This document shows, piece after piece, positions 1,029 to 48,099 of a stretch of 64,000 nt of DNA (position 1 is its first letter; each line of letters opens with the position of its first letter). Origin of the DNA: Ceratodon purpureus (lineage: Eukaryota > Streptophyta > Bryopsida > Pseudoditrichales > Ditrichaceae); NCBI GenBank assembly GCA_014871385.1, contig CM026426.1, forward strand, positions 74,762,303 through 74,826,302, given 5' to 3'. The position numbers and the translations under genes were made by a program. The notes under the pieces were generated by a model that searched no databases, had not been told where the DNA came from, and worked only from the letters and a program-made list of their open reading frames with translations.

Positions 1029-1217
1029 TGTACACTGAGCACTTACTGTACACAATGTACACATGTAGTACATTTCTAAAAGACATATTGTACATATTTT
1101 GAATAATGTACACATTGGACATATTGGACATGTTAAATTGTCGGTTGATCTTACGGCAATTGCATTCAGTGTTTGTATTACGCTTCAGGAAATACATTTA
1201 CTATGCTTCAATGTGGG
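1029..1217. repeat. GTAC-word cluster downstream of the SET gene
   Basis: About seven GTAC tetramers, mostly inside TGTACA or AGTACT, fall between 1011 and 1112, far above chance for about 100 bp. The cluster lies between the ends of two convergent genes. Similar words recur at 3140-3640 and 4775-5370, in the intron and upstream flank of the minus-strand gene, so it may belong to that mobile element. Confidence 0.5.
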
Positions 1218-4200
1218 TTTCTATTCTTCGTTAAATGCCCTCCAGTCCCTCAACGCATCTTCACAGATCTGCTTTGACTCAGCTCTGATCTTATAGACGG
1301 GACTACCTTTAACTCTGTGGGCTGCAAGAACCATTGGGAACTTGCAAGCTCTGACGAGATGAGCATTTACATGTGCATCAACCGCCCTATCACAAAACAC
1401 GTATGTTTTATCTCCTCTTCCATACTTTTTATAATACTTAGCTCGGATCACCTTATCCCCGGTAGAAAAAACTCCGCCGCATGGACATGACAAACCCTCC
1501 TGCAATACAAACTTCGTACGTTGACATTGCAGTATGTAGTAATCCACTCCATCTTCGTTGTCACTCTGTGCCGGGATCATGAAATTGTCACCCTTGCACA
1601 CCAAGTCACCTATCTCCACAGAAGTTCCATCGTGAATCCAGTTGGCGTCGTCATCAAGCAAATCCAGCTGGCTTGCTATAGCGCCGGTACTAAGTGGCTG
1701 CAGACGCTGTACCTTCCACTCCTGCACATGAGAGGAGTTCTCACAGTTATTCCAATCACCATCGACACAAGGGATGCAAAAGCAAGATAATTCACGAGTT
1801 CTAAGAAGAGTAGGTTCAGACACAGAGAATCCCATGACAGAGTGCAAATTCTTAGAGCCAGGCAAAGTACGACATTTAATACTACTATCTCTGTGATCTA
1901 CTTCAAACTCTCCAATGTTCCAGAAGATGCGAGAAATTGGGTTAGTTGTTGACTGAGCGTATGTGCTGGAAACACGCTCAGAGTAATTTTCCTTCAAAAA
2001 ATCGACAACATGCCCAGCATTCTGAAGCGGCCTCAGGGGGTTTTGAATTTGTTCCGCTCTCAGCGCCCTTTTCACGACTGCACCTGCACCATCCCACTCC
2101 CCCTTCCCGTGAGCTGATTCAAAAAAATTCCACCGCATCAAGCACCCCCCAGTGAGCGATGGATACCGACTAACAAAGTACATGGCAGTGGCACACTTGA
2201 ATTGCGAGCTGCAGCCGTCACTGAATACCCAATGTTCCTCTACAGTAAGTCCAGCATCAACCACCCAGTCCCAATGCAACATTAAGCAATGTTGCACAAA
2301 TGCCGAATCATGCGCCTTATCATCTGAAATATAATAATGCGTCTGCTTCATGATTTCGTCACCTTCCCTCCACATCGTGATATGTACAAGAATGGTTACA
2401 CTAGTGCTGAAGTAATACATGCTTTGCACTTCATTCTGAATTGCAAATGTATAATTTTCAGCATAGTCTATATGGGACACAAGAACCCCTTCGTCATCAT
2501 GAGCTGGCATTGCTCATCTTGCCACCTCGCTCTGAAATTGTGTGTCACGAAAGTAGTCACTGTCTTCTCCATGTACGAGAGGAACTCGTGGACGGGAGTT
2601 TCCTTGAACGCCTCTCTGAGTCTCTTTTTCAACTGCCCTGTCTCTGCATGCACTCCAACCTCATAGTACTCAAAGCACTTCCACTTCAGTAGAAACGTCT
2701 GAGAATCCTGTAACTCTAATGGACAGACCTTGAATAAATGAAAGCCACACTGTGTACAATCACCCATAAGACACTCGAACCTATGCCATCTCTCGAACTC
2801 TCCCTTTGGACATAGACAAGCCTCCCACATGGCTGTAATGTGCTTAAAAATAGATACGTGAGCATGGCAACCAGTTCCTTGTTCTTCGTTTGCACACACT
2901 ACACAGAGACATGTGCAGTCCGTTGAGGTATGGAAACCCCTCAGCTTGTCCCCGAGAGTAATTAATTCAGCCTTCATCATGTCCATCTCAACATGATAGA
3001 TGCAGCAACAAGTATTCCTCTCTTTTAATTTCTTTACCCACCACGGCTTCAACCTCTCGAATGCCCTCTGCCGAACATTGCATTCTGGGTGGACTTCGAC
3101 AAAACGTTGGAAGACCAGCGTCTGTAAAAACATGACAGCAATGTACACGTTGCCCCAGATTAGTACTTAATTACCACTCCGGATACTTAAAGTACTGATA
3201 TTCTACATATTCTACACAATAACCACATCCTAGTACTAATTAAAGTTCTTCTAAATTACTTGATTTACTTTGAAGTAGAAGTGTAATACAAATGGTACTC
3301 TGGACGACATATGAAATTAGCATCCCATGATACATAGTTCGAAAAATATACAAGGTGTACTCAAACTTGAGGACTAGCACACTGTGAGTACATCTCGGAA
3401 CTATCAAAACTTGATCACGTAAACGGCTGTACGCTAAATACTAGATGCACAATCACAAGTACGAATTTGATTGTCCCACAGCCAGGAGAATACAACTCTA
3501 CTCCTAGACAAAGTACAGAAACTACACAGCATAGAATACTGCAACATAATGTACTCTTTGATGACAAAGGTGGAGGAACAGTACATTCTACTGATTACAT
3601 CACCAACTATAGCACTCTGCATAGTACACATTGCCAAGTTTTAAAACGGAGATGAAAAGATTGTATAGGTAAACTTACTTGCGTTTCACAGAGATAGTGA
3701 GTAGGATGAGGTTCCAGCTAGAGTTTGCGCCCTATTCTATGTCTAACAATGTCCTTCTTGTTCGGTGAAACTTTGGTCTGTATCTCCCACCAGTGGAGAA
3801 TGCACTCTTTGACATAATCAGAAATACCCGCCCTTGGCTGCCGAGACAAACGCAACTTCGGAATAAACCCCTGAGAATCCTCATCTGGCAACCTCCTTCT
3901 CAAAGCAATGTTTATACTCTCTTTAGTTGTGTCCAAAACTCTAGACAAGGCACCCACTCGGACATTACAGCCAGAACTGACGGCAACATCTAAAAGAGCA
4001 GATTTCCGAGCTAAGTAGTCATGAGAATTTGCAACCTTCACTAAACGAAGCTCATTCTTAAAGTTATCAATGAAAGCATCCCTAGCTCGTGCTTCTTGTG
4101 GACGGTGATAACAATCAGGCAAAAAGGGAGAAACTGTAGAATGACGAAGGACTCTTTCCATGACATCTCTCCGCCCAGCTAGATTAGGACACTGTTTCAA

Positions 4201-4542
4201 CTCTTGAACAATACCTTGACAGATTCTCAACGCAATCCTACTATTCTCTCTCACTGTAAAAGACTGAGCTGCAGCTTGCTCCGCCGTGTCATGAGCTAGA
4301 ACTAGAGACTCTGCTACCCTCTCCCGGTCACGTACTCTCTGCCTGCTTTTTCTCTCTCGAGCTGCACTAGCGGTAACAACTCTTTGAGCCTCAAGGGCCT
4401 CGACATCAGCAGCACGTTCAATTGGACTAGGACGACTCAATCCCTCTCGTACACGCCGTCTCTTTGCAATATTTCCCATGAGTAGATCCTCCAAAGGAAA
4501 GTTTTGCATCGTCTTGAAGGTGGAGAGAAGCAAAATGAACAC
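1218..4542 (-). pseudogene. Transposase-like protein of an unclassified element
   Basis: Read on the minus strand, exon 1 spans about 4542-3679 and ends at a clear donor (CAA, then GTAAGT). Exon 2 starts at 3121 after TTTTTACAG. The N-terminal part is basic and coiled-coil rich. Next comes HPTHYLCETQ, then a Cys-rich segment (KPWWVKKLKERNTCCC, CTCLCVVC, CLMGDCTQCG) likely to bind zinc. The C-terminal part has IDYAENYTF, VFSDGCSSQFK and ESAHGKGEWDGAGAVVKRA. These spaced acidic residues suggest an RNase H-fold (DDE-type) nuclease, which is inference. Similar 'SDGC..QFK / HGKG..DG' proteins are common as unnamed transposon ORFs. The frame carries one in-frame TAG (3718-3720) and shifts once near 2500, so this copy is probably dead. 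No terminal repeats were found. Confidence 0.6.
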
Positions 4543-6702: not shown

Positions 6703-7497
6703 GTGCGCCTAGGAGAAGCCAGAAAAATAAGCGAGGCACCCGCGCTGAGACATAGGACGAGACTTCTCATTTTTGACTTGAACCATGTCCTCTGCAATAT
6801 TGAATCCGTGAGTTTAAAGAAAAAGGACATTCCTGCAGATACTTATATAAGCACCGAGGCGGAAATGCAGTACAAGCTGCCGGCCCTTATAAAGGCTTTG
6901 GGGAAGGAATCGTTTAGACTCGTTACCGCTAGGCCAAACGTGCCACAGTTTCTACGATCGCTCTTGGCTATAGCACATGTGGGTGTGTGGACGTGCATGG
7001 GGCAAGATATGGCTACTCCAATTGTCTCTTGGTTGTTCGGGGAGTGTAAGCCATCGTTTTTTTTGTCCCAGAGACATTGCACTATCCTGAAACATGAAGT
7101 CGAGAATAAGATGTATTGGTCAGAGCAGGGTTCCCATGATGAATTCTTCAAGGAATTGGCGCTATTTAGGAGGTTAGAATGGGGTATAGATCTAGGGGGC
7201 TTCGTTCCTTCTGAAGAGAACACTGTTATCATAGACAACAGTCCGCTTGAATGCTTCTTCAATCCTCGGAGGAATTGTATTTTCCCTTATACTTGGCGCA
7301 GCATATTGGATGAGAATAGCAATATGATGAAGGACATTAAGATCTTCAAGTCCTTGCGTCTGTTGGATTTTCCTATTTACAGATTCATAGAGGATTTATT
7401 AGAGGATGGGGACGGATTCAGAGTTTCAACTCAGAATCCTGTGTCCAAGGATAGTCGAATAGCGAAGTCCCTCGAACCGTATACTAGACGTATATGA
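6703..7497 (+). CDS. FCP1/NIF-like HAD-fold protein (plant DLN type)
   Basis: A 264-codon frame. Near residue 23 is LLIFDLNHVL, the plant version of the HAD motif DxDGT in which the second Asp is Asn. Next come FLRSLLAIAHVGVWTCM, SQRHCTIL, MYWSEQGSHDEFFKEL, then NTVIIDNSPLECFFNP and CIFPYTW, which match the order in plant FCP1-homology/NLI-interacting-factor proteins. True members dephosphorylate the RNA polymerase II tail or other phosphoproteins. The DLN motif and IDNSP suggest weak or lost activity, as is common in this plant subgroup. The first codons may be spliced (acceptor at about 6702). It ends at TGA, or a donor lies shortly before. Host gene or captured fragment; I cannot tell. Confidence 0.65.
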   Translation: MRLGEARKISEAPALRHRTRLLIFDLNHVLCNIESVSLKKKDIPADTYISTEAEMQYKLPALIKALGKESFRLVTARPNVPQFLRSLLAIAHVGVWTCMGQDMATPIVSWLFGECKPSFFLSQRHCTILKHEVENKMYWSEQGSHDEFFKELALFRRLEWGIDLGGFVPSEENTVIIDNSPLECFFNPRRNCIFPYTWRSILDENSNMMKDIKIFKSLRLLDFPIYRFIEDLLEDGDGFRVSTQNPVSKDSRIAKSLEPYTRRI

Positions 7498-10844: not shown

Positions 10845-11421
10845 TTAACCAATTTCGCTCACTGTGAGCTAAATAGGTTTAGCTTGCAGTGAGCTGACCA
10901 GGTTTAGCTCACAGTGAGCTAAATTGATTTAATTCACTGTGTTTTAAACCAATTTAGCTTATAGTGAGCTAAATTGGTTCACCTCACAGTGAGCTAAACA
11001 TATTTTGCTTACTATGAGCTAATCTTATTAAGCTCACTGTGAGCGAAACCTATTTAGCTCACTGTGAGCTAAATGTTTTAGCTCACTCTGAGCAAAACCT
11101 ATTTAACGCACACTAATGTAAACTAATTTAGCTCACTCAGAGCTAAATTAATTTAGCTCACTGTGAGCTAAAATGTTTTAGCTCATTGTGAGCTAAGATG
11201 GTTTAGCTAAATGTGCCCTAAAATGATATAGATTCATTTGAGCTAAATGGTTTAGCTAAACATGAGATGAATTGGTTTCGCTATCTGTGTATTAAAGTGG
11301 TTTAGGTCACTGTCTCACAAATCTGTTTAGCTCACTGTGAGCTAAATTGGTTAATCTCTTTGTGAGCTCCATTGATGTAGGCTTTTGTGACCTTATTTCG
11401 TTTAGCTCACTGTGAGCTAAA
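10845..11421. repeat. Tandem array of a palindromic ~25-bp unit (AGCTCACTGTGAGCT)
   Basis: About 20 diverged units with a spacing of 24-26 bp. The core AGCTCACTGTGAGCT is an inverted repeat around one central base, and adjoining TTTA/TAAA extends the symmetry. Units are linked by AAATTGGTTT-like spacers. The best copies lie near 11031, 11057, 11332 and 11403. The array sits just upstream of a decayed transposase-like relic (11.6-12.5 kb). It could be a plain minisatellite or a cluster of binding sites for an element-encoded protein. Confidence 0.85.
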
Positions 11422-11620: not shown

Positions 11621-12525
11621 ATGGAGAACATGTTTGAAATGGAAGACCTTCTACTACCACAAGAACCTACTCTGCCAGGCGATGTGGTTCACTGCAAAGG
11701 ACTGCCTAGATTGTCTTGAATTACGAAGTGTGTTACTCTTGTGAACGAGTATGCCTCCAATAATGCGAAAGGCATTTGTCATAGCGTCGACTCCGACCTT
11801 GTGATTGGAAGTGATTGGACACCTCTCGGTGATGATCGAATAGCGGTGCAAATTGCAGAATCCCTTTGTGTGGATGACATTCCATTCGAATGGATGTTTT
11901 TACGCCGAGCATGGCATATAAGGAATGTGTTTGTGAATGGAGCATCATTGTATGACCGCGACGAAGTTGCCAAGTAAAATGCTGCCGTTCCCTTTTCAAG
12001 GGGAAGGAAGCGCATAGGAGTTAGAACATATGATAGTAGCAGGGTACCGCATATTGTTGCTACTACTCCCAAAGCGGAAGATAAATTATCTACAAGGTCT
12101 ATTTCCGCGGTTTCTAGCGAGAGGTGTTGTACAACCAACTGCGTATAGTTTTACCCTCGAGAAAAGATTGAAGCCCTTAGAAATAAATTCTGGAGAGATG
12201 GGACTGTGTATTTTAAAAAACACAACCAGCTAGACGTGCATCGGCAAATGCACTGTGACTCTGCTGGGAAGCGAGTTGTCACATTAGAAGGACTAGAAGT
12301 TTGTCCAGTTGCATGGTAGAAAATATTATGAATCTCTCGGACAAGCTTTTTCCGTCACCAAGGCCTTGCTGAACAAGGTGTTCGAGCAGATCATCATGGG
12401 AACTTGGGAAGTAAAAGCCGCGTACGTACACCATACAGGCTAAAGCAACATTGGGTTGCATGCTTGATAGTATGGCAAGTTATGGTCTAACGTACTTTCA
12501 CCCTACTGACATTGATCCTAAATGA
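11621..12525 (+). pseudogene. Relic of a transposase-like gene, N-terminal part
   Basis: One frame can be followed from ATG at 11621 to 12525 but is crossed by several stops of all three kinds. Recognisable stretches are DIPFEWMFLRRAWHIRN, YFKKHNQLDVHRQMHC and TLEGLEVCPVAW; a shift of frame then gives HHGNLGSKSR and YGLTYFHPTDIDP. This resembles the N-terminal part of large unnamed transposon proteins of seed-free plants and streptophyte algae, a family identification from memory only. The relic is cut short at its 3' end, and it is more decayed than the elements to its right. Confidence 0.4.
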
Positions 12526-14926: not shown

Positions 14927-17900
14927 CTAGGGAGAAAACACATCGTCACTTTCTATTGCACTGTGATCAATGAATTTGACAACTTTTGGATCATAGCTAC
15001 GTGGTGAAGATAATGCACTCGAACTTTGCTCTGATTCTTCAGCGAGGGCTTGAGCTCTTGCCTCGGCATAGCATGGGAGACTCCAAGTATGTTCACAATC
15101 ATAGTTCGACTCGGTGGAAGGTGAAGTACCACTCATGCGACTGCATGACAGATCTCAGAAATCAACATTTAGGTATTCAAACATAACAAATGTTCATAAT
15201 AGCAAAAATTAGATACAGCGTGAGCATAAGACTTACTCACATAAATCTGTTTTATCCTCCTCAGGATATGGAGCTTCTTCATCAGACAGCTCTTGAACTT
15301 CAGTCTGTTTGGTTCCCGTTGTGCTAATGAGAGGCACTTGAAGTGATAGCAAAACCTCCTCATAAATGTCCCAGTCCCCTTCAAGCCCAACTATGTTTCT
15401 ATTGGTTGCTATTGCAGCACCGATTGAGGCACCTGTACAAAGAAGTAATTTACATGGTAATTAGCGAGTTAGGATGATCAACTGATAGGCAGTCATGTGG
15501 TTTAAATAAAAAACTAAAAGAGTTGAAGAGAAACTTGTTTCGGCTGTGAGGTCGATGATGGTACCATTTAACGGACAAGTTTCAGAAATGAGGGATTGGA
15601 GTAGGGCAAGAGATTTTTCTTTCGGGCCTCTCCAGGGCATCCCATCGATCTTCTTGAGACAATCCTCCAAGGTAACCCAGTTAAACAACACGGCGTCTTT
15701 GGCGAGGTTAGTCATTCCTACGCCCTAGCTCGAGGGGAGGAGAAGAGGCTTCGGCTGCCTGGCTACGGTGGCACCAAAGGATCTCACAAGCAAGTACGCT
15801 TTAAATTTTAAAGTCTAATCATTAAAACAGAGCAAACATCAGAAGAAGCATCTTTCAAGTAAATACGAGTAATATTCATGAGTCAAAAAAATATAAAACA
15901 CAGTTAAAAATTAAACTCACATAGCTTTCGGGGTCTGTGAGATGGGACAGGTGGAGTGCGTTGATTATCGACCACTCCTTCAACTCCTTGCGGTCGTTGT
16001 TGTTGAGAAAGGCAGTCAACTCTTTCTTAATATGTAATCTATCTGGAGCAAAAATCCACAACGCTCCATCGTCATGCAAATAACCACCGTAAAATCCAAT
16101 GACAAACTTCATAAAGAATTTTATTTGCTGGTTCTAGGCAGGTACTTGGGAGGGTGGGTCAGACACTCCAGGAACCGGGAGATCGTTAGGAAAATCTGCT
16201 ATAACAAGGTCAACCCCAGGCTTTGACAAGAGTTTTCCTCCAAAGTGAAATTCCCGATTCGTACGAGTCTGAAATCACATGAAAGGCAGAAAATTAAATG
16301 ATGAATTAAGAATAAAACATTAAAATAAACTACAGAATAAGGGTAATTAGAAATACCATAAGGAGAAATGCTATCATGTCGTCAAAGGATTTTGGAAATC
16401 TCTTCTGCTTGTTCTTATACTCCATCATTTTTGGAAAAGTGTCATTGATGACCAAGACTTTGGAGGAGGGTGCTGAACTGAAGGATGGCTGGGATATAAC
16501 CAAGGATTTCAGTGATGGAGGGATGAGTGGGGTACCTGAAGTAGTCTCCATATCTTTAACATGCGGCTTCTTATGAACCTACTGCGTTGGTGTACGTGAC
16601 TTTGTGCGATTTCGTGCTATCACAGCAGGGGCTTCTTTTTCAACCAACTCACCACTCGCAGCTGTTGTTGCAGGAATGTCTTCATCTTGAGTCTCTCCCA
16701 TCAGATTAGTAGCTTTGCGTTTGGCACCCCGAGTCTTGTTTGCCCCAGCTGCCCTTCTTGACTTCTTTGTCGCTGTAGATGACACATTTGCTTTAGCTGG
16801 AGCAGGGGCAATGTTCGCAAGTGTTGGCTGAAGGGAGTCTCGGAGCTGGACATGGAACGGAGGCGGTTTCTTCACCGGGCAGTCAAGATACCAACCACAA
16901 CGGTCATAGTGGCAGTTGTCCCATGCCTTCAGGATGGCACTTGTAAACATGCACTCGGGACTTGTGATGTCAAGATAAGTGGGAAAGAAGGCAGGTACCC
17001 GCGTCACTGCTTTCCTAGGAAGCAGTATGTCTTTGAAATATCGGTAAAAGATTCTCCTCAAAGCTGGCTGAAAATTGGGCTGTTGGTCTTTAGATTTGTT
17101 CTTGTGTGCCTGATCAGCCCCCATGAATTCTCTGAAAAATGCATTGTCCTAGAGGGAGCAACGCATGGCCTCTACGTAATCAAATATTTTCTCGATAGGA
17201 TTTTTGCCATCAGGGCAGTAATTTATGGTCACCCCTAGGTCGGTGACAACCGCCTCAAAGAGCTCCTCAGCTTCTACCGCCATCTGAACAGTCAAGGAGA
17301 TTATTAGCAAAAAAGACTCAAGCATCCAAAAAAATAAAAGCAACAGGATAACATTTACATGCCAAATTCTAAATAACATATGCTAAAACGAGGCCTAATG
17401 TAAAACTAAGGTACTACCGTTAAAGCTAGGGAAATTCATTTAGCAAAAAAACCAGCTCACGTTAACTGCAGCACTAAAACAGTGGGCCATGAAAGGACTA
17501 CTGTTGGTACTAAGCAAACATTGCGTGGCAATCAGTGCCATTAAATTAAAAGAAAAAAGTGAAGCCTCTGGTACTGCCGTTAACGGCAGTACATTTGGAG
17601 TCCATCGCGGCACTACAAAAAAAACTTGAAAATGTACTGCCGTTAACGGCAGTACTAGAGCAACGCATAAGAAGTCTAAGAAAATAAGAAAAGCCGTCAG
17701 AAAATAGTCCAATTCTGAATTACATATCCTTAAATGTGACCTAATGCAAAACTAAGGTAAGCCATATGGTAAGACAATTTAGTTAGCATAAAAAGTAACT
17801 GCTGTCTACTGGAGCACTAAAACACTGTATCATCAGATGATTACTTTCGATACCATGCAAACACGGCCTGGCAATCAGTGACAATCAATTGTAAGAAGAA

Positions 17901-20900
17901 TGAAGACTCTAGTACTGCCGTTAACGGCAGTTCATTTGGAGTCTCTAGGGGGCACAACAAAAAAAGCTTTCAAATGTACTGCCGTTAACGGCAGTACCGG
18001 AAAAGCGCATAAGAAGTTCTTTAAAAATGGTTAAAGACTTAATACAAAATGTTGCTGTTGACCATAAAATCAATATGCCGCACCTAAGGCGTATGTTCGA
18101 AGAAAAAATATATTATTGATTTGGTAGTGCCGTTAACGGCGGTACATTTGGAGGCTATCAAGGAGAAACACGAAGAGCATAAAAATGTACTGCCGTTAAC
18201 GGCAGTACCGATACATCATATCATAACATTTAAATTTAATGCGATGGTAAAATAAAAAAAATGCACAGATAACATTTAATACTCTTCGAACCCGTACAGT
18301 ACATATAAAAACCATTGTAGTGGGCTGTCATGCATCCAAAATAAAGGATTAAGAATATGTTACCTGTGCCCACCACGTGGCTTTGTGAAGCCATGGAGGA
18401 AATAATGTGTCTGCAAAAGAAGGCTTGGGGAACCGGTGGGACTTTCGGATTGACTCAGGGGAGTTCCAGCGTTCCAACCACTTGATTTTCATCTTAGTTG
18501 GGATTGCAAAAGTAGCGAACATGTTGAGTTTCTCCTGTTGCATTTCTGGGGATGGAAACTTCTCATAATGAAGTTTGACTTGCTCAAGAAATGCCGGTGT
18601 ATGCTTCAGATCCACAACCGGTAGCAATTTTTTTAGTTCCCCTTGTTGCGTGGCAACTACTTTCTCAACTGCGAATCGAACCCATTCATCTACAGACTTG
18701 TTCGTCCACATGTGCTTTTCAGAATACATTTTGTAGAATCGCTGCTCCGCACTTGAAGCCGCTTCACCAATCTCTTGCTGAGCACACATCAAGTAATGAT
18801 ATAAGAATTTCTCTAAAATCATAAAAGAAAACCTCAAGAAATTAAAAGGCAGTTTAGAATTACCTGGTATAGAAATGAATTGAGGGACTCTACCGTGAGA
18901 TTGTACCAAGTCGGCTTTGCACCAGATTGTTTCTTTGTGGCACTTTCAATTGTTGCACGTGGGACAAGGCCTTCGAAGTAGCTGAAGGGCTGTGGTGCAA
19001 CACTTTGTATCCTGAAAAATTTGTGTACCATATTTGTGGTCACATGAGACTTCTGGTTCCTCCTGCACATTTTATGATGAATCTATTACATAGAGAATCT
19101 GTTACAAAAACTGAATCGTAATCAAATATTGAATCAGAATGCTTACCAGTTAACTTTGTGTAAAGCAGCGATGACTGCTGGAACGTTGCCTTTCGGGTCC
19201 AGTATAATGCTCTCAACTCTGTAATGCCAGTTTATGTCCCGGGAGTGATACTCATTTATGATAGGATACCATGCTTGCAGCCGATGATTACCATCCTATA
19301 CCATGAACATTTTATTGGAAAAGACCTTGAAATCCTCATCCTCCAACAGCGTCTTTTCGAAATCTTCATTTACCTCACGCCATTCCGGGCTCCAACTGTT
19401 TGTTATAGCCGGAGTGACATCCACAGTATGGCCCAGATTATCCTGAAGAGCAACATAAAAAAACCCGTTCCCTTCCAAGTATCCAGTCTTCACAAAGAAT
19501 GATGCTAGCTGCGAAACATCGGTCTTCAAATATGGCCTCACAACTGGAAGAGACTGCATTCGACAAAGCGGTATAAACAATCTCCCCTTAGTTTTGGGCT
19601 CCCACTTCAAGTCAGCCAGGCGCAAAGCAGTATTAGGAATCTCCCTCTCAACAAGATCGTGGAGCTTTGCTTTAACTTCGCTCTTTGTTAAGGATATAGC
19701 ATCTGCAGAAAATTTAGACAAAGAATCATAAAGTCAGATGCGCAGCATCAAGTAATATAAGTTCAAGCATGTATTTTAAGCATTGGAAATTCAAGCATGT
19801 GATCAAAGCAGTACCGAAAGTGTTAATAAAAGAGGCATGTAATTTGGTTCAAATGAACTACCGTTAACGGCAGTACTTAATCACAAGTTCTAGAAATCAT
19901 GCAGCCCTTTAATAAACATGTCAATACCACCCCTTGAGTACATAGTGGAGACATACAAACAGCATGAGAACCAAGTGCCGTTAACGGCAGTACAAAATCA
20001 CCCTCAAAAAAAGCCTGCTTCGGATCTAGAAGGTGCTGATGAGATCTGTTAGAATCCATTGACAATGAAAGAAGTGCGTAGCATGATATGTCGATACAGC
20101 ACTGCTTTTGTACTGCCGTTAACGGTAGTACAGAAGCAGCCTCTTGCAAGTTTGAATATAAGCATGCCATGGTCCCCGACGATGGTACATTATCACAAAA
20201 GTACTCTAACAAAGATATAATCTTCGAACTTAAGCTACAAAAATCAGGTAAAATGGCCTTCAAAATGTACTGCCGTTAACGGCAGTTCTTTGGGATAAGT
20301 CTAATGGACAAGCATTTTGCATAATAAACATACTGCCATTAACGGCAGTACATTTAAGGTTAGTCCAATGGACAAGCATATTGCATAAAAAGCATACTGC
20401 CATTAACGACAATACCATTTGACTATGAATGTGTAAGCTCACATAAACAAAGAATTGCACTAGGTTAACGTTCGTACTAGTACAAAGGTTTTAAGTACTT
20501 CAAATTAATCAATCTTAAAATAATGCAAGCCTTTAAGTAAAGTTAATCTGAGACAAATGTTTATATGAATGTGAGCCACCTGGGTTAAAGGTAATAGAAT
20601 TAGCCACCTGAGTTTAAGCCTAGGTGCTAATTATTGGATACTCTAGAAACATTGCAAGGGTGAAAACGTACTGCCGTTAACGGCAGTCCATTGCGAATGT
20701 AGTAGGAAGATATTGCAGGAGCAGGCGGGGTTGCTACAGTCCCATTCGAAATAAATTAGAATATAATAATATTACATAGAGGACCACCATCGTAGACAGT
20801 AAACTGACCTTTAATTCAGAGGAACCGAATACATCAACTTCGATTCAAAACATTACCCTTTGGTTCGACAATTTGTGACAACAATCTGGACATAGTATCG

Positions 20901-22033
20901 ATGTGCAATTTGGGCAGAGTATAAAGGTCGTAGAATAAAAAGACACCAATCTCGACGACACCCTAAACCTAAAAGGTAAACAAACCAAGTTAATTGATCA
21001 CAGCAGAACTGTCTGTAGAATAATTTCAAGAGCTCACAAACATAACGAAAGGCGCACAAACAACTGAAGAAAGGAGGCACACCTTCAGACTGCTCCGGCC
21101 TTGGCTCGATCTTGGTGTCATCCTCTTCTTTGTCTTCATTGTCGTTGCCATCCTCGACTCCAGGGTGATCCTCACCACCATGTTGCTCCTCGTCCTCCAT
21201 TAATTCGTCTTCGTCATTGCGATCGTCATCTCCTGTGCGGCCATCAGAATGAGGGTTATCATCGCCTTGCTCTGCGTCACTTCTTCCTCAGACTGCTCCG
21301 GAGCCTCCTGTTGCGACACCATTTTCTGAAACAGTAGACACCAAAAGTTCAAGAAAATATACCCTTTAGCGTCTGAATCTGTGAAGATAATTCTTTGGTA
21401 TGAGATACCAGCTAACCAGAATAACTAGTAATGCAAAAGGAGTAGAAATGCTGACCCAAAAACACGACGACTCTTAAACAAAGCTGTAACCAAGAACGAA
21501 GTAGTCCACAAGAAGTAACCCTAAAACTCAGCGAAAGCAACACGATGCAGTTAGAGAAGTGGTACCAGGGCGATCTTAACGAGGCCTCTTATCCTAAGGG
21601 GAACCTAAAATAAGCAAAAGAGTGCAATTTGACATACTTGGGCTTCCTTTACTTGTCATGTCATTATTTGGTGATGAAACTACTGATAGTAAGCTACATT
21701 GGTGAAATTCAGTAGGCTACTTAAATAAGTAATTTTCAAATGACAACAGATGTAACATACCTTATTTCCAGGGCTTGCACTTGTATCAGATTTCACGACT
21801 TGAGTGTTTTGATGCTTGAGACGTCTTTCGTAACGCAATGTGCTATCTTCTTCAATGCCTCCCAATGCTGAGTCTCCGTTTGTCTTCTCAAAGTCTAATG
21901 CTCTAGTTATGCCATCCTTCTAAAATCTTTCAGTCTCTTTTCTAGCTCTAGCCATTTTACTACGTTTAAGAGCCTTAGCGTTACTAAAATGCGTCGACAC
22001 TTTCTTTCGCCGCTTCTTAGGTAGAGCTAGCAT
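14927..22033 (-). CDS. DGNHR (ParB/Srx-like) plus amino-methyltransferase-like protein, copy A
   Basis: Ten exons on the minus strand fit one frame through consistent GT-AG junctions: 22033-21761, 21325-21083, 19702-19147, 19062-18864, 18777-18364, 17283-16357, 16268-15921, 15814-15535, 15432-15237 and 15140-14927, about 1,215 codons. Order: basic N-terminus (KKRRKK, a likely nuclear signal); acidic tract; VFSNKMFMV then DGNHRLQAW (about 308), the DG(N/Q)HR motif of ParB/sulfiredoxin-fold proteins; WYLDCPVKKPPPF; a Lys/Arg tract; then a beta-class amino-methyltransferase order: VDLVIADFPND (motif IV), GYLHDDGALWIFAP, KEKSLALLQSLI and DLTAETSASIGAA...IVGLEGDWDIY (motifs X and I). Motif IV reads DFPN, not DPPY/W, so catalysis is doubtful. 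Six in-frame TAGs (21920, 19296, 17149, 16579, 16134, 15725) and one frame change in the acidic tract suggest a silenced copy. It is head to head with the MULE gene. Confidence 0.72.
17571..18208. repeat. Palindrome array 1, TACTGCCGTTAACGGCAGTA, in intron 5
   Basis: Six copies of a 22-bp palindrome (G + TACTGCCGTTAACGGCAGTA + C) start at 17571, 17634, 17912, 17976, 18124 and 18187. Four are perfect. They come in pairs 63-64 bp apart, and the first two pairs are 341 bp apart within a diverged tandem duplication. The palindrome is far better kept than the sequence between copies. All lie inside the intron between 17284 and 18363 of copy A. Confidence 0.95.
19855..20689. repeat. Palindrome array 2, same word, in intron 2
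   Basis: Seven more copies of the same 22-bp palindrome, perfect or with a few changes, start at 19855, 19972, 20110, 20267, 20330, 20393 and 20668. Three of them are again spaced by 63 bp. All lie in the intron between 19703 and 21082 of copy A. None is seen in its exons or elsewhere in the window. Confidence 0.92.
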
Positions 22034-22611: not shown

Positions 22612-25600
22612 ATGGCTCATCTTCCTGCAGACAGAGTGTTAGGCACGGCAGTCCTCAAAGCTCATGGTCTAGGTATTCCACTTACAGTACGTGTAGATGA
22701 GGATGGCTTGGCTCTTGTGACGGCACAACGCCTTAGCCTCAGATTTCACTTCAGAGAGGAGACTGTTTGTTTAGAGGAAGAGATTTATGATGATGAGACA
22801 AATGAGATTACACATACGCTAGATTAGGTTTTTGAGAAAGATGATGACGATAACAGTTTCTGGAACCTTTATCCTCGTAGATACAGAGTTTATGGTCTTA
22901 CAGAGTCCCAGATGCAGGCGTCTACTGAGATTCTAACTCCTCGTAGATCATCTACTATTCAGACTCCTCTGCCTCGTGATGTAAAGGTTAAGATAGAGCC
23001 TAGCTTGGACACTCCTGATGTAACACCAGTCATCTCCCTCTCCTCAGACGAGGAGACTAGTCCCCTGAAAGCATCTCCTGATGTTCCTAGACAGTCTGTA
23101 GTATCTAGCATGCCAGCTACACTACCAGACAAATGTGCCAGTACTTCCGAGACATCAAAGGAGGAGACTGTCAATCTACTGCCACTGATTAAGATACTTG
23201 CGGAGAGACCTGGCAAGAAAAATATACTGAAAAGAATAGATTTCTCCTCAATTAAACAGGAGAAGGTAGAGTTCTTACCTACATTCTTCAACAACAACGT
23301 GATCTTCGAGCTCCCCCCAGTTGGTGACGGGGCTTCCAGGACGCAAGCGAAAGCTATGAAGGGAATAGACAAGCGTTACGATGGCCACGTTTGGACGAAG
23401 ACAATCACTACCAACATCACTAACGAGTTCGGCCTCTCATTTCGCTACTCCAGCTGCGTTGGTTGGCTGCGCTGCATCAACAAAGACTGTGCATTTCTCA
23501 ACCGTCGTCCTCGAATCGTTGAGGTAAACGAGACTGAGTTTGAGGGCAGTACTCTCCAAGCTTTTACAGTGGATCAACCACCTCCAGCGGATTCAACACT
23601 TGTCTGCAAGTTATGTAAAGAACCCCCTGCATGTATCGCTACATGCGGGGCCAAGATTTATTACGTTGTTGGTAAAACCAACCAGACTAGGGCATGTATC
23701 CATCAAGGAGGACATAACCACCCAGTGAAGGTTGGAGACTATAGAGACACTAAGGAAAAGATTAATAGCTTTATTGAAGAGCAGGTGGAGAATACTCCCC
23801 GGGCTACAAAGAGCGCCGTTGTCTTGGAGGCCAGTAAGGTTCTGATCGCAAACTACCTCCTACAACCTGAAGACGCACCATCTAAGAAGGTGAGCATGGA
23901 GGAGCCCATTCCTGTACTTGACCGATGCAAGGACATGGCTTCCCCAAATATCCGCAACAAGGTGATGACGTTCAAGCGATTGAGAAGGTACGGTGTCATG
24001 GACGCCATCACCAAACTCCGTGGGATCAGTTTGTGGGCCTTCGTCTAGGAGAACAAGTTCCCGGGCCAAGGAGCTGAGAGAGAGAAGGTCTTTGTCTTCA
24101 AGATGTCAGAAGTTGGGCCAGGTAGTGGTGTCGATTTGGTCACCAGAATGCAACATGGTGAGGATCTTGACAATGCATGGATCATGTTCAACCAGGTAAA
24201 GCGGGTACGGGACTAGTCCACGATGGCTTGCCACGTATGTGACGCCACCTACTACCGCGTCATGACGATTGCAAGTTGCGAAATGCAATACGAGGACACT
24301 GAGGCCCAGCTGGTCGTCTGGAAGAACCTCAACATCATTATGGAGAGGAATGGCGTTGCAGCGCCAAACTTCAAGGGGTTCATGGCAGACAATGCACAAG
24401 CGAATTGGAATGCGGTGCATATCTTCTACGAAAATGGCAACAAAGAAGACAAAATGGAGGATCGGGAAAGGTCCTGCTTGTTCCACTGGACCCAGAACAT
24501 GGTCCAGTATACTAACAAGTATTTCCCCGAAGAGCTCCGCGAACAGCACAAGAAGATGTGCAACCAATAAAGAACAGCAAGAACTTTGACAGAGGCGGAC
24601 ACTCTTTATCACACGTTGCAAGCATGGTGGATATCTACTGGGGTCGTGGGAAAGAAGGGACTAACCAAACTGGGGACTTGGCTGGCATTCTGGCACCACC
24701 GCTACCGACAGTGGGGTGGATTCATGTCTGCGGAATGAAGCTACTAAACCCTGCTGCTGTACTTGTTTTTTGTTTACATAAACTTAATCGACATCACTTA
24801 TATAATCACTAATAACTGTAATTGTTTAAACTGCAGAAATTTACTCAAGAAAGAACTCACAGAGATGCCGACCTGTAACCTCGCCGAAACAGTTCACAAT
24901 AAGTGGTTACAAACATCAAGTAACAACGGCAGCGACCTCTATGTTGCCCATGTGGACGATTACGTTCGTGGCTTTCTACAAGTTGTAAACTACTACCAGT
25001 TCGTGAAAGGTGACGTAGGCGGAACTGGTCCTTTGAAAAAGGAACTCAAGCTTCGAATGGCGGAACGCAGGGCGAAGATTACAGGAAATCCTATAGTCCT
25101 TGAAGATTCCATGCTGGATATGCTTGGTGCAGATGACTTCTGCACCCGTCAGCCTGTCACGCCGGGTGCAGAGGTGTTTGGATCACAGAAGCGTAAGGCA
25201 GGCGTTCCCATCGGAGCTGACGAGGAGTCACATCGACCAGACAAGGTTAACTTCTCACGTTGTAGAGGTGTAGGACGTGCCGTTCGAGCTCGCCCTGTCC
25301 AGCTGCCCATCATCGTCGACGGCGATTCTGAAGATGAAGAAGCCCAAGAATCTCCCGCCCAAGAAGCTTACTCGCCTCCAGCGTCTCCTCTGAACGAGGT
25401 AGGCGTTCGCCATGTCAACGCTGTTGAAGAAACCAAGGTCGATGTGAAGGAGTGGCACATTGCCAGACTTCACAAAGCTTCTGCAAAGTGTTGCTGGGCC
25501 CAAAGAGTTGTAACGAAAAAGAAGTGTAGTGAGAAAGTTGTCAGGGGCCCAAACTTCACTGCTGCACCGACCTACACCGGAGTTTGGACTAACTATTGCG

Positions 25601-26320
25601 GAACACAGTTGAGAGGACAGGGTTCTTCTTCTGCTCCGATGATATTGAGCGCTGCATGAAAGGCACAAGGGGCAAGTGGGTTGCACACTACTCGAAGGAC
25701 CAGGAAGTGCCGCCGATTCCAGAGGTTTGGCCCGTAAAACTAGGAACTAACCTGAAGCTCACAGAGATCCTCGCCGTTGAAGCTGCAGGGTTCCAACTCC
25801 CGCCGAAGAAGCCAGTCTCCCCAAGACGACTCTTCTTGTCTGCCCCGCCTCCTACAAATCTCGGTTCATTGCCGATTCCAGAAGAAGCTGACCGCTACCC
25901 TGGTAAGAAGATGGGAAGATGGTCAAACGCACAGCGACTCGACCTAACCCGGCGCAGCGACTCTCCATGGGCTCCTCTCAGTCTCTCAAGGCTCGCCTCC
26001 GTTCCGTCACCATGATACCTCATCGAGGCCATGGTTGCATCATGAGGCTGGATTCGGGCATTGCTCCGAACATCACACAGTACCAGATCACCATCACCTC
26101 TTACCCGAGTTGCACTTGTCCAGCATTCAGGAAGACGATGACAAAGTTTCAAGGTAAGATATTGTTTTCATACTGTAAACATATTTATTACATCCTTTTA
26201 AAGGTCTGCAACCGTAATCCGGAGGCCGAGCTTTTCATCCATGCGCCTACCTTTAGTTTCAACGAAGTCACACTAGTCCTAGAGAACAGAATCTTGACAC
26301 ACCCCTTGGCCAAAAAGTAG
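22612..26320 (+). pseudogene. MULE-type transposase with C-terminal SWIM zinc finger
   Basis: The frame starts at ATG 22612 (MAHLPADRVLG). A Ser/Pro-rich N-terminal region precedes a Cys/His zinc region (CVGWLRCINKDC, CKLCKEPPAC, HQGGHNHPV; about residues 285-370). The transposase core has STMACHVCDATYYRVMT, FKGFMADNAQANWNAV and SCLFHWTQNM, the DD-type core of Mutator-like transposases. A second exon starts near 24837 after CTGCAG (CNLAETVHNKW, VDDYVRGF). The end has YPSCTCPAFRKTM...YCKHIYYIL, a SWIM finger (CxC...CxH). In-frame stops are TAG at 22825, 24046 and 24214 and TAA at 24568; the frame shifts near 25.6 and 25.95 kb. Known role: cut-and-paste transposition in the nucleus; this copy looks inactive. 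No terminal inverted repeat was found. Confidence 0.8.
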
Positions 26321-30456: not shown

Positions 30457-32997
30457 TTGTCAGGATAAGCCCTACATGTAATCCAACAACTACTGCCTAA
30501 TTCAAATCATTGTGACTGTAAGCACTCGCCAACAACGTTTCTAATCTCCCGTAATAATATTCGGAGAATAATAACTATGAACCCAACAACATAACAAAGA
30601 AAACAATGCCCTCCATATTGTCAAAGTTTTGCAACGGCGGGTCATCGAAAGAGAAATAATGAGCACCAAGGAATGGAGATGGACGTTGAAAGAGGGGGAC
30701 AACGACAATTGGCAATACTAGGTAAGGAAAAATCCAAATACTTACAATAGCCGGTGGTTAGCTTTCTAATTGGTAGATCAAAGACTAGTAATAGGTCAAT
30801 CACGTTGCTAAAGTGGACGGCTTAGATCATCTAGAAGAAGTATTCCAAGTACAATCAGAGAACAGAGTACACCAAAAGTAATTCAAAAATCTGCCCAAAG
30901 TGTACCAAGTGTAGCTTGCCGATACCACGGGTTGTCTTACAGGCCCTCTTTGGAATCCCTTTTTTCTCCTAATGTCATCTAGATTGGTGATAGGGATTTT
31001 GTTAAGTGCAACGGCCAACTCTGCCACTTGAATCAAAGGAGCTATGAGGGCATTGTAGATTTTAGTATCTGGCTCTAAAGATGCTACATGGCGATTTACA
31101 TTGTCACAAGCAATGATAGCAGACCCTGAGACAAGCACATTCCAAATACTTATCAGAAATCATCACATACAATGTACAGAGAGCAAGGAAGTAGATAAGA
31201 CCATGAATGACAATCACATCATTTTATTTCAATACATTGACAACATATTCACTTGAAGCCATTGTGTGTGATAGAAATTCAAACCATATGAACATCATTT
31301 TTAGACTCGACACGACAATGTAGTAGTCAAAAGATGGCCACCAGTTTATCAGAATTACTAATCAAATCAATTTCAAACTAAGAATCACATGAATGTATCA
31401 CTAGGCTAATGTATGGGAATGGAGCATTTATAATTAAACATGACTTTGCAGGTTCACTCCTTAGTGTACTTTGAACTGAGAGTTACAGTCATTGAGGGGG
31501 AAGCTGGAGTATAGTTGATTAATTATGCTAGGCAAACACCGAAATATAGAAGTTCTCACTAGAGACTGTGAGATTCACATAGACGGCATTGGAGAATAGA
31601 TATTAAATCATAAGAATGAGCACATTTGTTAAATACTCAATAGATCCCGTTTAGCTGACACAAGTTGAATAATGATGAGCAGAGTAAAATAAAAAATTAA
31701 ACTACACAAAACAATAAACCGAAGTTGACAGTCATAAGAAGGTCAAAACGAATCCTTGGCCTCCAATAAATAATACCCCTTCCGCAATGCTAGAAAATCA
31801 AATAATAGAGCTGCAAACAAAACACCCTTTCGCAGATAATTAATGAATCTACAATTATAGCATTGACTAAGGCTGGCTATAACAGCAACGACCATCATCA
31901 TTGTGTGAGCATCATCATGGTATGGTCATAGACCCAAGCATAAGACGCAAAGTCCGAACAGTCACATAATATCACCTTATAATTGCACTCAACTTTGAAG
32001 TTTATATCAACATAATATAGATGAATAATAAAAAAAATATATTCTCCAGATTAGAAGAGAGATGACCAATATATTACCTTGCTTAAAAGTTCCTTAAGGT
32101 CGTAGTAGGCCGGAGTAAGGACTTTCGATTTTCCTCCAAGGATTTCATCCACTGATGAGTTCAAAATGAACTCACCAATAGGGTTTTGGCCTCCAATGTG
32201 GAATCTAATACCGGCACTTGAGTAAGGAGCTCATGGGAGGAGGCCCTTTTTGTACCTCTTGTCGAAATGGTTCGAACTTGAAAACCTGAATCTATAGTTA
32301 GGCTTGGGATTTGAAGACCTTTTCGTTGATCCTCCCACTGAGTACTAACCCTTTTTTGCCTTTTCTAGAGGGCTTCTTAGATGCCTTTTGCTGCCTCCTT
32401 AACTCCTTCTATGCTGTTTTTTCCTCAGCTTCCTTCACCTTTTGAGTTTTCTTGCGATCTTCTTCAATATGCCTTTTAGTGCCCTAGCACCCTCATTCTC
32501 ATCCTCAATTGCCTTTGGATCGTCCATCTCCTCACCTAAATCTCCAATAGTATTCCTTGATTTTCTCAACTCAATCTCAAAAGGTGGAGGATGATTAATG
32601 CTACAATCCAAGTACCATGCCTTTGAAGTATTATAAGAGGTAGTCATGGTCTTTTGCTCGGCAACAGAAGGGTTGGATCTATCCACCCAAGTATTTAGAA
32701 AAATTGATATGTTTACTTTGGAGATAGCCTTCTTAGGCAGAAGTTCATACTTTGAAATACGTGAATTTAGAGGATGCGTTAAACACTGAGAACTGAATCA
32801 TACAATATGTAAAGTAAATAAACAGTACATTAAAAAAAGAAAAAGCAATACCTCAAAATGACTCTTCTCACAACAAGGTTAGAACCCTTGTACTTCTGGA
32901 AGCCATCAATCTTTTGAAAACAGTCGTGCCCACGGAAATGGGCAGAGAATGTATGATCCCATGGCTTCATTTTGCAATCTTTGATGTATTTGGTTAA

Positions 32998-33752
32998 CCC
33001 CTAAACGCCTAAACGACCAAAAACTGGTCGTTTTCATTTTTCCAAGTTCCAAAACTGTCATCCAAATGACAATTTTTCATCCATTTTTTTTCTTGCGTGG
33101 TAAAGTTGAGAGAGATCTATGTAACCTCATTAAAAATTTCTCAAAATAATAATTTCATGAATTTTTGTGCCTCCTTAAAGTCAAAAAGATCAATACCGTG
33201 TGTGTATTCAAAAATTCCTTGATACAGACAGCTGAAACACAATTTTGACTATTGGGATGATATTTTTTGCAGTTGAGGTAAACTAATGAAATGTAGTTTG
33301 GCAAATCTTTTTTCCAGTCCAATTTAAAATTTTGAAAAATACCTAAAATCGAGTGATTTATAGCTGGTATAAGATGAAGGGGTATAACCGTGGCTACTTC
33401 TTGATTTTCCACGGTTTTAGGTTTTTTCATCATATTTTTTATTTAAAACATAATTTTTGAGCACGGTAACTAATATAAGGTTTTTGGTTGTCATATTCAT
33501 CTATGGTAAATATTTCATAATTTTTTAGTATAACCTATATTTGATATGAATTTTCTTTATTTGTTTTGATTTGAAAATTTATATTAATTACATTTTGAAA
33601 TATTTAATTTTGATAAAATTATTTCTTGTAGATAACATGTGTATCTAGCTAAGAAAAGTTTATAATTCTTATTTTATATTATTTATAGTAGCAGAATAGA
33701 GCATCCAAAGTCAAAGTCTATTCCCGTGGTCATAGGCTCAGGCATTTGGGGG
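32998..33752. mobile_element. piggyBac-like non-autonomous element (TTAA), copy 1
   Basis: 755 bp flanked by TTAA on both sides. Ends are CCCCTAAACGCCTAAACGAC and, inverted, CCCCCAAATGCCTGAGCCTA: imperfect terminal inverted repeats starting with CCC. TTAA duplication with CCC/GGG ends is the hallmark of piggyBac-type elements. No transposase is inside. A hairpin ACGACC-ACTGGTCGT follows the left end. It lies within copy B of the DGNHR gene. Confidence 0.75.
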
Positions 33753-45841: not shown

Positions 45842-47779
45842 CTACTCCACGGCTGCATCTGTGGCAATTGCCTCAACAAGGCTGGACAGTTCCTCCATGT
45901 TGGTGTCGTCCTCGTTCTTCTCAGCTGCACCAAGTCCTTGCGTGGTGGCGGATGAGCCCTTGTTCCCTTCTCCGGATAGGGCTGCCTGGGTCTCATGAGG
46001 AGAGCGTTGCGTGGGATCGAACGCCACGGAGTCTGAGTCGGGGAGAGCATCCTCTGTAGTTGCTGCCAGCAAACAAGAATTAGAAAATAAGAATTATTCG
46101 GATGTAACAACGAATTAGGCAAGATCTAGTTGGGCAGATAGGTTAAGGGGCAACAAACCTTGGTCGCCCTTGGTCTTCTTCCACGGAAGCGCGGCCACAG
46201 AGGAGGCAGCGGGCCTCTTGCTGCCAGCACGTGGTGAAGCAGGCTCGGCGAGGAAGATCTCCTCCGTGAGACGTAACTCCTCCGCGGCCTTGGAGTCGAA
46301 GTCGAAGCCCCACTGCCCAAGCCATCCTCCAGTCATCCCCCGCTCGCATCGACGGCACCGGGCGTCCTGGGAGAAGACTGCCTCAAACATACAATGGGGA
46401 TGTGCCAAGCAGCCGCAGAACAAAGGTACGCAGCAGGTGTCAACGAAGTAACGCTCGCAGAAGGGGCATGGGTCGTTCAGGGCTATTGGCAACACCTGGA
46501 ACTCCAATGGATAACGAGCCAGCACATTCTTCGGGCGCAAGAAAGCTGAAGCCAACTCCAAGGCCGAGATCTCCGCTGTCAGCGCGGAGACCTCGGCGTG
46601 GCGTCTCTGCTCATCGGCTTCCATCTCCTCCAACTTCTTGTAGACCCTGTCAATGCGGGCTTGGGCCTCAAGGAGTGCCTTGCTTGCAAGCCCCAGCTTG
46701 TCTTGGCCTAAGCGGGCCGCGTGATCAAAGCGCCTCTTCTCTTGGTCGTTGCCATCAGCCGCGGCCTTCTTGGAGGCCTCGCGGGCGGAGAAGATGTCGT
46801 CATAGAGCTTGGACTCCTCGGCCTCCTTGGCTTTGATGTAGTCCCGTTGGGTTGCAAGGTCGACCTTCATGCGGTCCCGGCTGGCCTCCACCTTCAGAAG
46901 TGCCGCCTCCAAGGACTTCTTCTTGAGGCGCTGCTGCTCCAGGACCTGCTTCGGATCCGTTGTCACCAAGGGCTGCACCTTGATGGCAACGGCAGCAAGG
47001 GCCTTCACGGCCTTCTTCTCAGCCACGGCCTTGGCAGGAGGGGGCAGGGATCTAGGTCCCCTGACCTTCTTCGCCTCCGCGGCCGTGATCAAAGCCTTGG
47101 AGGTGGCTCCAACTGGCTTGGCTCCTCCGCTCGACTCCGCCCCTCCTCCCTTGCCCTTGCTGCCAGCACCGGGGATGTGGCCAGCGAGGAAGTCGATAAT
47201 GGCTTCAATCTGCTCCCTCAAGGCCGGGGGAGTCAACTTCTGCGGATCACGCCCTCGCAGCTTCTCACGCCCCTTCACAATTGCCTCCGCCTTCTGGGCG
47301 AAGTTGACATCCACGCCCTTCTCAAAGTAGAGGTGGCAAGCCCGAAGAAAGGAGGTCCCGAATGCCTAGTTGTCGGGGTCACCTCCATAAGTCCACCGGT
47401 ACATCTCGCAGTATTTCCTCTGGGCCTCCGGATCCTCACAGTCAGCAACGTAGTGCCGCCCAGAAGAACGCTCTGGCCATCTGTCGATGAAGTCGGCCTT
47501 CCTACAATGCTTGTCGCCGCTGAGGTCACTGAACTTGAGCCCCTTGTTGGAGAGCCGCAAGGTGCGGTGGAAGAAATCCTCATCGTAATCCGCGGCTTGC
47601 CTACCCAGCAGAAATGGGGCGAGGTGGTGGAGCTGGCCATGAAGTGCAGGGGGTAAGCCGTCCAAGTCGAAGGCGTCATCCCACGGCGTCTCAACATCGT
47701 TGCCATCCTCCTTGCTGTCAACAACCTCGACGACCTGCTTCTTCACGACGACCTCCTTTCCCTTCCTACGGCTCGACAT
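45842..47779 (-). CDS. Coiled-coil protein with RING-like zinc motif
   Basis: Two exons, 47779-46159 and 46062-45842, fit one frame of 613 residues. The intron ends in TTTGCTGGCAG, so the cassette word forms the splice acceptor. Order: basic N-terminus (MSSRRKGKEVVVKK); an acidic middle; a long Lys/Glu/Ala coiled coil (about residues 280-400); then CPFCERYFVDTCC...CGCLAHPHC...CRRCERG (about 420-475), a RING-like cross-brace; and an acidic tail (ATTEDALPDSDS, MEELSSLVEAIA). RING proteins often act as ubiquitin ligases; here that is inference. One in-frame TAG lies at 47366. The same strand as the 49.6-52.7 kb gene suggests a shared element. Confidence 0.6.
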
Positions 47780-48099
47780 CCCTGGCGCTGGTAGTGCAAA
47801 AACAACACGTTTTACGAAAGGGGGATCGCGCATGGCAGCTGAAAAAGGGAAGAACACAAGCAATGGGGATTATTCTTGCGGATTACTGTAGTTTAGTTCT
47901 TACCCAAAAATCCTCACAGCTTGGAGGACCTTCGCGGCCATGGCTGAACGACCCCTCTCAACTTTGCCATGGCCGATTTACTCCAACTCTACAAGAAATA
48001 GACAATCACAAGAGAACAACTTAGCAATGGATGGGCAACTTACCTTGAACTTCCTCACTGTCCGCGCGTGAAGACGTGCAGCTCGCCCCCGTCGCCTAA

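Follow-up and report, generated by a model that had tools for sequence, protein, structure and literature searches.

The window analyzed here is a 64,000-nucleotide stretch of the genome of Ceratodon purpureus (Bryopsida; NCBI GenBank assembly GCA_014871385.1, contig CM026426.1, positions 74,762,303 to 74,826,302 of the forward strand), with positions counted from its first letter. On the minus strand, from 22033 down to 14927, it contains an intron-rich gene, hereafter the main gene, which joins a plausibly ParB-like exon to a C-terminal part related to beta-class amino-methyltransferases. The main gene is a decayed copy. Its two longest introns hold arrays of a 20–22 base palindrome, and an older relative is found further along the window.

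Open segments of the main gene were chained by 10 introns, all of them bordered by GT-AG and with consistent phases, and the resulting splice model comprises 11 exons with 1,192 codons. A preliminary description made from the sequence alone had read ten GT-AG exons giving one protein; the chain, the splice borders and the phases stand, but the model has one exon more, and six in-frame stops interrupt the frame. The difference is due to a putative, phase-preserving exon 2a of 16 bases (21363..21378), which is followed by a 37-base intron. Since both are unusually short, this doubtful exon is the weakest join in the gene model. Exon 1 (21761..22033) has a lysine/arginine-rich start, and the acidic exon 2 (21083..21325) has two coding-looking frames, of which the phase-fitting one contains a TGA, so that its frame is uncertain. 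An intron of 1,380 base pairs (19703..21082) leads to exon 3 (19147..19702), the one with the ParB-like motif. Exons 4 (18864..19062) and 5 (18364..18777, without a match in Pfam) were placed by the splice model and precede the second long intron (17284..18363; 1,080 base pairs). Exon 6 (16357..17283) contains a stretch common to the second copy, exons 7 to 9 encode the methyltransferase-like part, and exon 10 (14927..15140) encodes a C-terminal tail ending with TAG. The internal stops are located at residues 38 (TAG, exon 1), 109 (TGA, exon 2), 313, 612, 802 and 921 (all TAG), with one of the latter four in exon 3, two in exon 6 and one in exon 7. With six internal stops, this copy of the gene is therefore broken. 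Decay by CHG methylation as the source of the TAG codons was considered and found unsupported, as the observed/expected ratio of CAG plus CTG is 1.0 in the main gene. Between 26300 and 35000, CAG/CTG amounts to 0.60–0.62 and CpG to 0.50–0.64 of expected; this depletion is stronger than around the main gene and perhaps reflects older methylation-type decay.

The methyltransferase-like part begins with its N-terminal half in exon 7 (15921..16268), where ADFPND stands at the place of motif IV (expected DPPY), and continues through exon 8 (15535..15724; PKEKSLALLQSLI ... GTIIDLTAET) to the motif I end in exon 9 (15237..15432; SASIGAAIATNRNIVGLEGDWDIYEEVL). All methyltransferase-like strings quoted in the preliminary description are present and in the order given there, and motif IV, an HPTEKP-like block and motif I follow each other in the beta-class order. 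The sole Pfam match of exons 7–9 was N6_N4_Mtase (PF01555; E 0.023, 15.1 bits, under the cut-off of 26.7 bits), spanning positions 163–217 of the 221 profile positions and thereby its C-terminal block. With E limited to 10, PHROGs returned five families, four of them named methyltransferases (best E 6e-4) and the fifth without known function. All four PADLOC matches were methyltransferases, and NCBIfam gave no match. Among PDB sequences, six distinct chains were obtained at E up to 10, none of them significant, two being DpnA (E 1.2–1.3). Plasmids searched by tblastn with this part yielded 20 records under an E limit of 10, the lowest E being 0.01; 10 of these records are annotated as DNA methyltransferases. 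The same search in phages gave 130 records within that limit, the best E among the 30 matches listed being 0.09; these 30 comprise 17 methylases or methyltransferases, 12 CobS or porphyrin biosynthesis proteins and one hypothetical protein, so that the phage matches are weak and mixed.

For profile comparison with hhalign, five bacterial methyltransferases from eight fetched loci were aligned. The query matched them at 96.8% over the C-terminal 74 columns with an E of 2e-10, a value that is flattered because the five references had been chosen by similarity to the query; a reversed query used as control reached 0.1%. The profile matches reach the C-terminal side only; the motif IV side was placed through a multiple alignment of the query with three of the fetched methyltransferases, in which VDLVIADFPND falls on the DPPY motif. 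The methyltransferase-like C-terminal region named in the preliminary description is thus supported by Pfam (at a score under the cut-off), PHROGs, PADLOC and hhalign, and the comparisons argue for a relative of the beta-class amino-methyltransferases.

In exon 3, a DGNHR motif can be read directly at residues 314–318 of the splice model, immediately after the TAG at residue 313; it had been announced near residue 308. The motif follows an xPLxx(I/M)... and a D..LA.. pattern, and with these surroundings it resembles the ParB/sulfiredoxin pattern. A search of phages and plasmids by tblastn with exon 3 gave no match, and an AlphaFold2 prediction of exon 3 as a single sequence was uninformative (mean pLDDT 34.8) and was not used. 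Exon 3 is plausibly ParB-like, mainly because both domains have been described together elsewhere.

The two longest introns of the main gene contain a palindrome of 20–22 bases, GTACTGCCGTTAACGGCAGTAC / TACTGCCGTTAACGGCAGTA, with 13 copies in the window at up to 3 mismatches in 20 positions. Seven copies lie in the 1,380-base-pair intron (19856–20688) and six in the 1,080-base-pair intron (17572–18207), and no copy with up to 3 mismatches was found elsewhere in the 64 kb. Shuffled sequences contained none (0 in 100 shuffles). The copies deviate from the consensus at 14 of 260 positions. The unit is sharply bounded, as relative entropy falls from 1.79 bits per position within the palindrome to about 0.35 in the flanks. 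Some copies of the 1,080-base-pair intron sit in duplicated intron blocks, which are 76% identical; within these blocks, 1 of 40 palindrome places is changed, compared with 68 of 266 places elsewhere (Fisher p 4e-4). When the columns of the blocks were shuffled, the preset places were equally conserved in 3 of 20,000 trials, while any two windows chosen post hoc matched in 330 of 2,000, and the conservation of the palindrome is therefore only supportive. Helical phasing is not claimed, since p is 0.0135 at the preset period of 10.5 and 0.18 once the period is scanned, which is suggestive at best. In viral contigs, the palindrome had no exact match, and Rfam gave no match to the whole window at gathering thresholds. 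To judge from its place in the gene, the palindrome may be the own target of the encoded protein, and a palindrome array in the introns of such a gene looks new.

The palindromes could also be unconnected with the protein and represent a MITE-like or hairpin repeat in AT-rich introns, or RNA hairpins for splicing or small RNA. The unit does fold into a hairpin of 9 base pairs whose loop is TTAA (−14.5 kcal/mol), and the array arose partly by duplication of intron blocks. Another array stands outside the main gene at 10853–11421, where a different palindrome, TTTAGCTCACTGTGAGCTAAA, unrelated to that of the main gene, is present in 12 copies with no more than 3 mismatches each, many of them at 25-base-pair steps; 100 shuffles produced none. 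However, all 13 copies of the intronic palindrome are confined to the main gene, and the units of its two introns are alike in the palindrome and unlike in the flanks. None of the 14 deviations is compensated on the opposite arm, and RNA pairing is therefore unsupported. We regard an unrelated repeat as possible but doubtful.

A tblastn search of the window with the spliced protein revealed a second place on the minus strand at 32761–32558 (33% over 72 columns, E 4e-8). The match is extended by collinear pieces at 32988–32848 and 31129–31034, neither of which reaches significance on its own (E 99 and 22, respectively). This older relative (30830..33000) has an exon-6-like part at 32988–32438 and a motif-I part resembling exon 9 from 31125 downwards. 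The start of this last exon at 31125, after CAG, was set by eye and agrees in phase with that of exon 9; motif I reads (x)SAIIACDNVNRHVASLEPD, with glycine at x provided that the exon before it closes with G. The second copy lies in an AT-rich stretch and is decayed further than the main gene. Two relatives within 64 kb fit a multiplied family, and the older one appears to be a new finding.

About 0.6 kb from the main gene, a transposase-like gene starts on the plus strand and is transcribed divergently. Its first part (22612..24735) is MULE-like by eye and contains TAG at 22825, 24046 and 24214 as well as TAA at 24568 if the frame continues; its likely 3' part (25907..26317) shows a SWIM-like CxC...CxH pattern. 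Reading by eye suggests an N-terminal finger of cysteines and histidines, together with a DDE region resembling that of MULEs and a finger of the SWIM-like type. Pfam gave SWIM (E 0.13–0.23) and T4_deiodinase (E 0.009–0.017) for the finger stretch and Opy2 (E 0.045–2.3) for the DDE stretch, all below cut-off. Like the main gene, this neighbor is broken.

Further open reading frames (ORFs) were found at a distance. The plus strand contains a histone-methyltransferase-like ORF with Pre-SET and SET domains at the window edge (28–774; E 3e-9 and 9e-9) and an ORF for an NLI-interacting-factor-like phosphatase of 264 amino acids (6703–7497; E 1.4e-13). Long ORFs at 1185–4542 (minus strand) and 11720–12316 (plus strand) resemble, by eye, a gene of another DNA transposon (e.g. 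SDGCSSQFKC); two minus-strand ORFs within 1185–4542 had no Pfam family over the cut-off, with a single weak match to 1-cysPrx_C (E 0.097). Two other long minus-strand ORFs (46115–47869 and 50167–51390) contain one in-frame TAG each, and Pfam gave no match at E up to 0.01 for 46118–47314 and 50506–51372. Retrotransposon pieces, Ty3-type by eye, are located on the plus strand at 56600–58600, with an RVT_1 frame (E 4e-17) broken by TAA and TGA, and at 62160–63840, with the frames at 62–64 kb broken by TAG and TGA.

These frames bear on the idea that TAG is read as a sense codon and that the main gene is intact, which would agree with the share of TAG among its internal stops (5 of 6), with the three TAG codons of the transposase-like gene and with the two long ORFs that are each split by one TAG. 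This idea was rejected, because the retrotransposon-like frames of the window are interrupted by TAA, TGA and TAG alike, which makes a changed genetic code unlikely. Moreover, stops other than TAG also occur in the main gene (a TGA) and in the transposase-like frame (a TAA), and ordinary decay accounts for all stops. We consider a sense TAG highly improbable.

Our proposed explanation is that the main gene is the decayed accessory gene of a DNA transposon, of the kind that encodes ParB-methyltransferase proteins in algae, and that intact copies mark their own palindromes; we hold this explanation with about as much belief as doubt. Taken by itself, the assignment of the main gene to the ParB-methyltransferase type of transposon genes is probably correct. 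The intact protein would recognize the 22-base-pair palindrome arrayed in the introns of its own gene and would methylate DNA there (GCCGTTAACGGC sites) at adenine-N6 (6mA) or cytosine-N4 (4mC). Such methylation would mark the DNA of the element itself and might thereby either protect it from silencing by the host or guide the transposition machinery, in a manner resembling VANC of the Arabidopsis VANDAL transposons. That intact copies bind and methylate the palindrome and so mark the element for expression or transposition is a tentative suggestion with more doubt than confidence attached to it. More speculative, and in our view rather unlikely, is that intact relatives represent a self-recognizing 6mA (or 4mC) writer as a counterpart of VANC, which would have arisen independently in algae or plants.

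Several results speak against this explanation. For exon 3, no match was obtained in Pfam, NCBIfam and PADLOC; PHROGs gave one unnamed family (E 0.21) and PDB sequences two unrelated chains (E 0.9–1.4), neither including a ParB, hhalign against two plasmid ParB proteins reached 0.3%, and no helix-turn-helix or other DNA-binding domain was identified. Of the ParB/Srx-like reading in the preliminary description, the motif is thus retained, but a ParB match is missing in all these collections. No relative was confirmed in viral contigs searched with the methyltransferase part, or in viral contigs and prokaryotic genome contigs searched with exon 3. The link between palindrome and protein is purely one of position. 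Pfam gave no MULE match for the transposase-like gene, and a search for terminal inverted repeats (TIRs) with target duplication between 8.0–14.9 kb and 26.2–36 kb returned AT-rich or low-complexity chance pairs only. Finally, the curated cut-off of PF01555 was not reached, and both catalytic motifs are degenerate, with ADFPND in place of DPPY and DLTAETSAS in place of DPFxGSGST.

Because neither TIRs nor a target duplication were found, we infer rather than observe that the main gene and the transposase-like gene belonged to one element. The same lack would suit a host pseudogene that came to lie beside an unrelated MULE, and host-like ORFs do occur in the window (Pre-SET/SET and NIF-type phosphatase). 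Yet a second, diverged copy is present within 64 kb, the divergent transposase-like neighbor is likewise broken, and the same layout has been published in a transposon context (PMC12477816). A host pseudogene therefore appears improbable to us, and we prefer the transposon accessory gene.

The degenerate motifs concern activity. The catalytic (D/N)PP(Y/W) and FxGxG of PF01555 are absent from the main copy, which is therefore unlikely to be active as a methyltransferase as it stands. The loss might extend to the whole family, whose members would then be sequence-specific binders with a dead methyltransferase fold; any effect against silencing would not require DNA methylation, as in the reports on VANC. 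The replacement of both motif positions in the main copy would be in line with this; on the other hand, the main copy is decayed, so that the motif changes may postdate its death, and motif I of the second copy reads (x)SAIIA, with glycine at x under the condition given above. A family that had lost catalysis is in our judgment unlikely, though not strikingly so.

The presumed fusion of a ParB-like domain with an amino-methyltransferase is shared with bacterial ParB-methylases such as Bce_0392 of Bacillus cereus, for whose ParB domain DNA nicking has been reported (PMC5512222). These proteins are prokaryotic, intronless and, in that text, without a link to transposases, whereas the ParB-like part of the main gene was not detected by profiles. 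Compared with the family N6_N4_Mtase (PF01555) itself, the C-terminal block and the beta-class motif order are alike and the catalytic motifs of the main copy are degenerate. Fungal DNA transposons carry TET/JBP genes (PMC12730594); DNA-modifying enzymes on DNA transposons are common to both cases, but enzyme class and hosts differ. In eukaryotes, 6mA has been linked with permissive chromatin (PMC12695648, 2025).

The nearest relative in layout is Sola1-1_Ec32 of Ectocarpus (PMC12477816). Opposite its transposase gene, this 21.5-kb element encodes on the other strand a protein of 1,104 amino acids in which a ParB-like domain is combined with a domain of N4/N6 DNA methyltransferases; cases from green and red algae are also cited in that paper (Iyer 2011; Petroll 2025). 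As this layout has been described in algal transposons, it is not new in the main gene. The preliminary description knew of no plant mobile gene of this kind, and a mostly open-access literature search showed no streptophyte gene with a ParB-like plus amino-methyltransferase layout among the matches listed; for plants this agrees with the statement, but the algal transposons of PMC12477816 narrow it. The two genes would be alike in combining both domains, the ParB-like one here by its motif, in one protein of comparable size (1,104 amino acids there, 1,192 codons here) and in lying on the strand opposite a transposase gene, here a transposase-like one that may have belonged to the same element. 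Unlike in Ectocarpus, the neighbor here is MULE-like by eye and not Sola1, the gene is broken, and intronic palindrome arrays are present, which the accessible passages do not mention; the comparison is one of descriptions. The same passages propose that such algal proteins bind and modify their own transposon, and name no target. The 22-base-pair palindrome, with 13 copies confined to introns within the window, offers a concrete candidate target for proteins of the algal type and makes that proposal of PMC12477816 testable.

The closest working analogue is VANC. It causes loss of DNA methylation and is, to our knowledge, not a methyltransferase. In Arabidopsis VANDAL elements, which are MULEs, VANC binds a 9-base motif repeated in the non-coding parts of its own element and lifts silencing, and VANC21 motifs build up in introns of VANC21 and VANB21 (PMC5735166). 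In both cases an accessory gene, here a probable one, is accompanied by a short motif that recurs in non-coding sequence, the introns of that gene included, and the setting is MULE-like, here by eye. They differ in the motif, which in VANC has 9 bases and is not a palindrome, in the protein, which is methyltransferase-like here, and in the kind of evidence, since binding has been demonstrated for VANC while the present case is known from sequence. If the proposed explanation is true, transposon self-marking with iterated intronic sites would have evolved twice, by means of two unrelated proteins.

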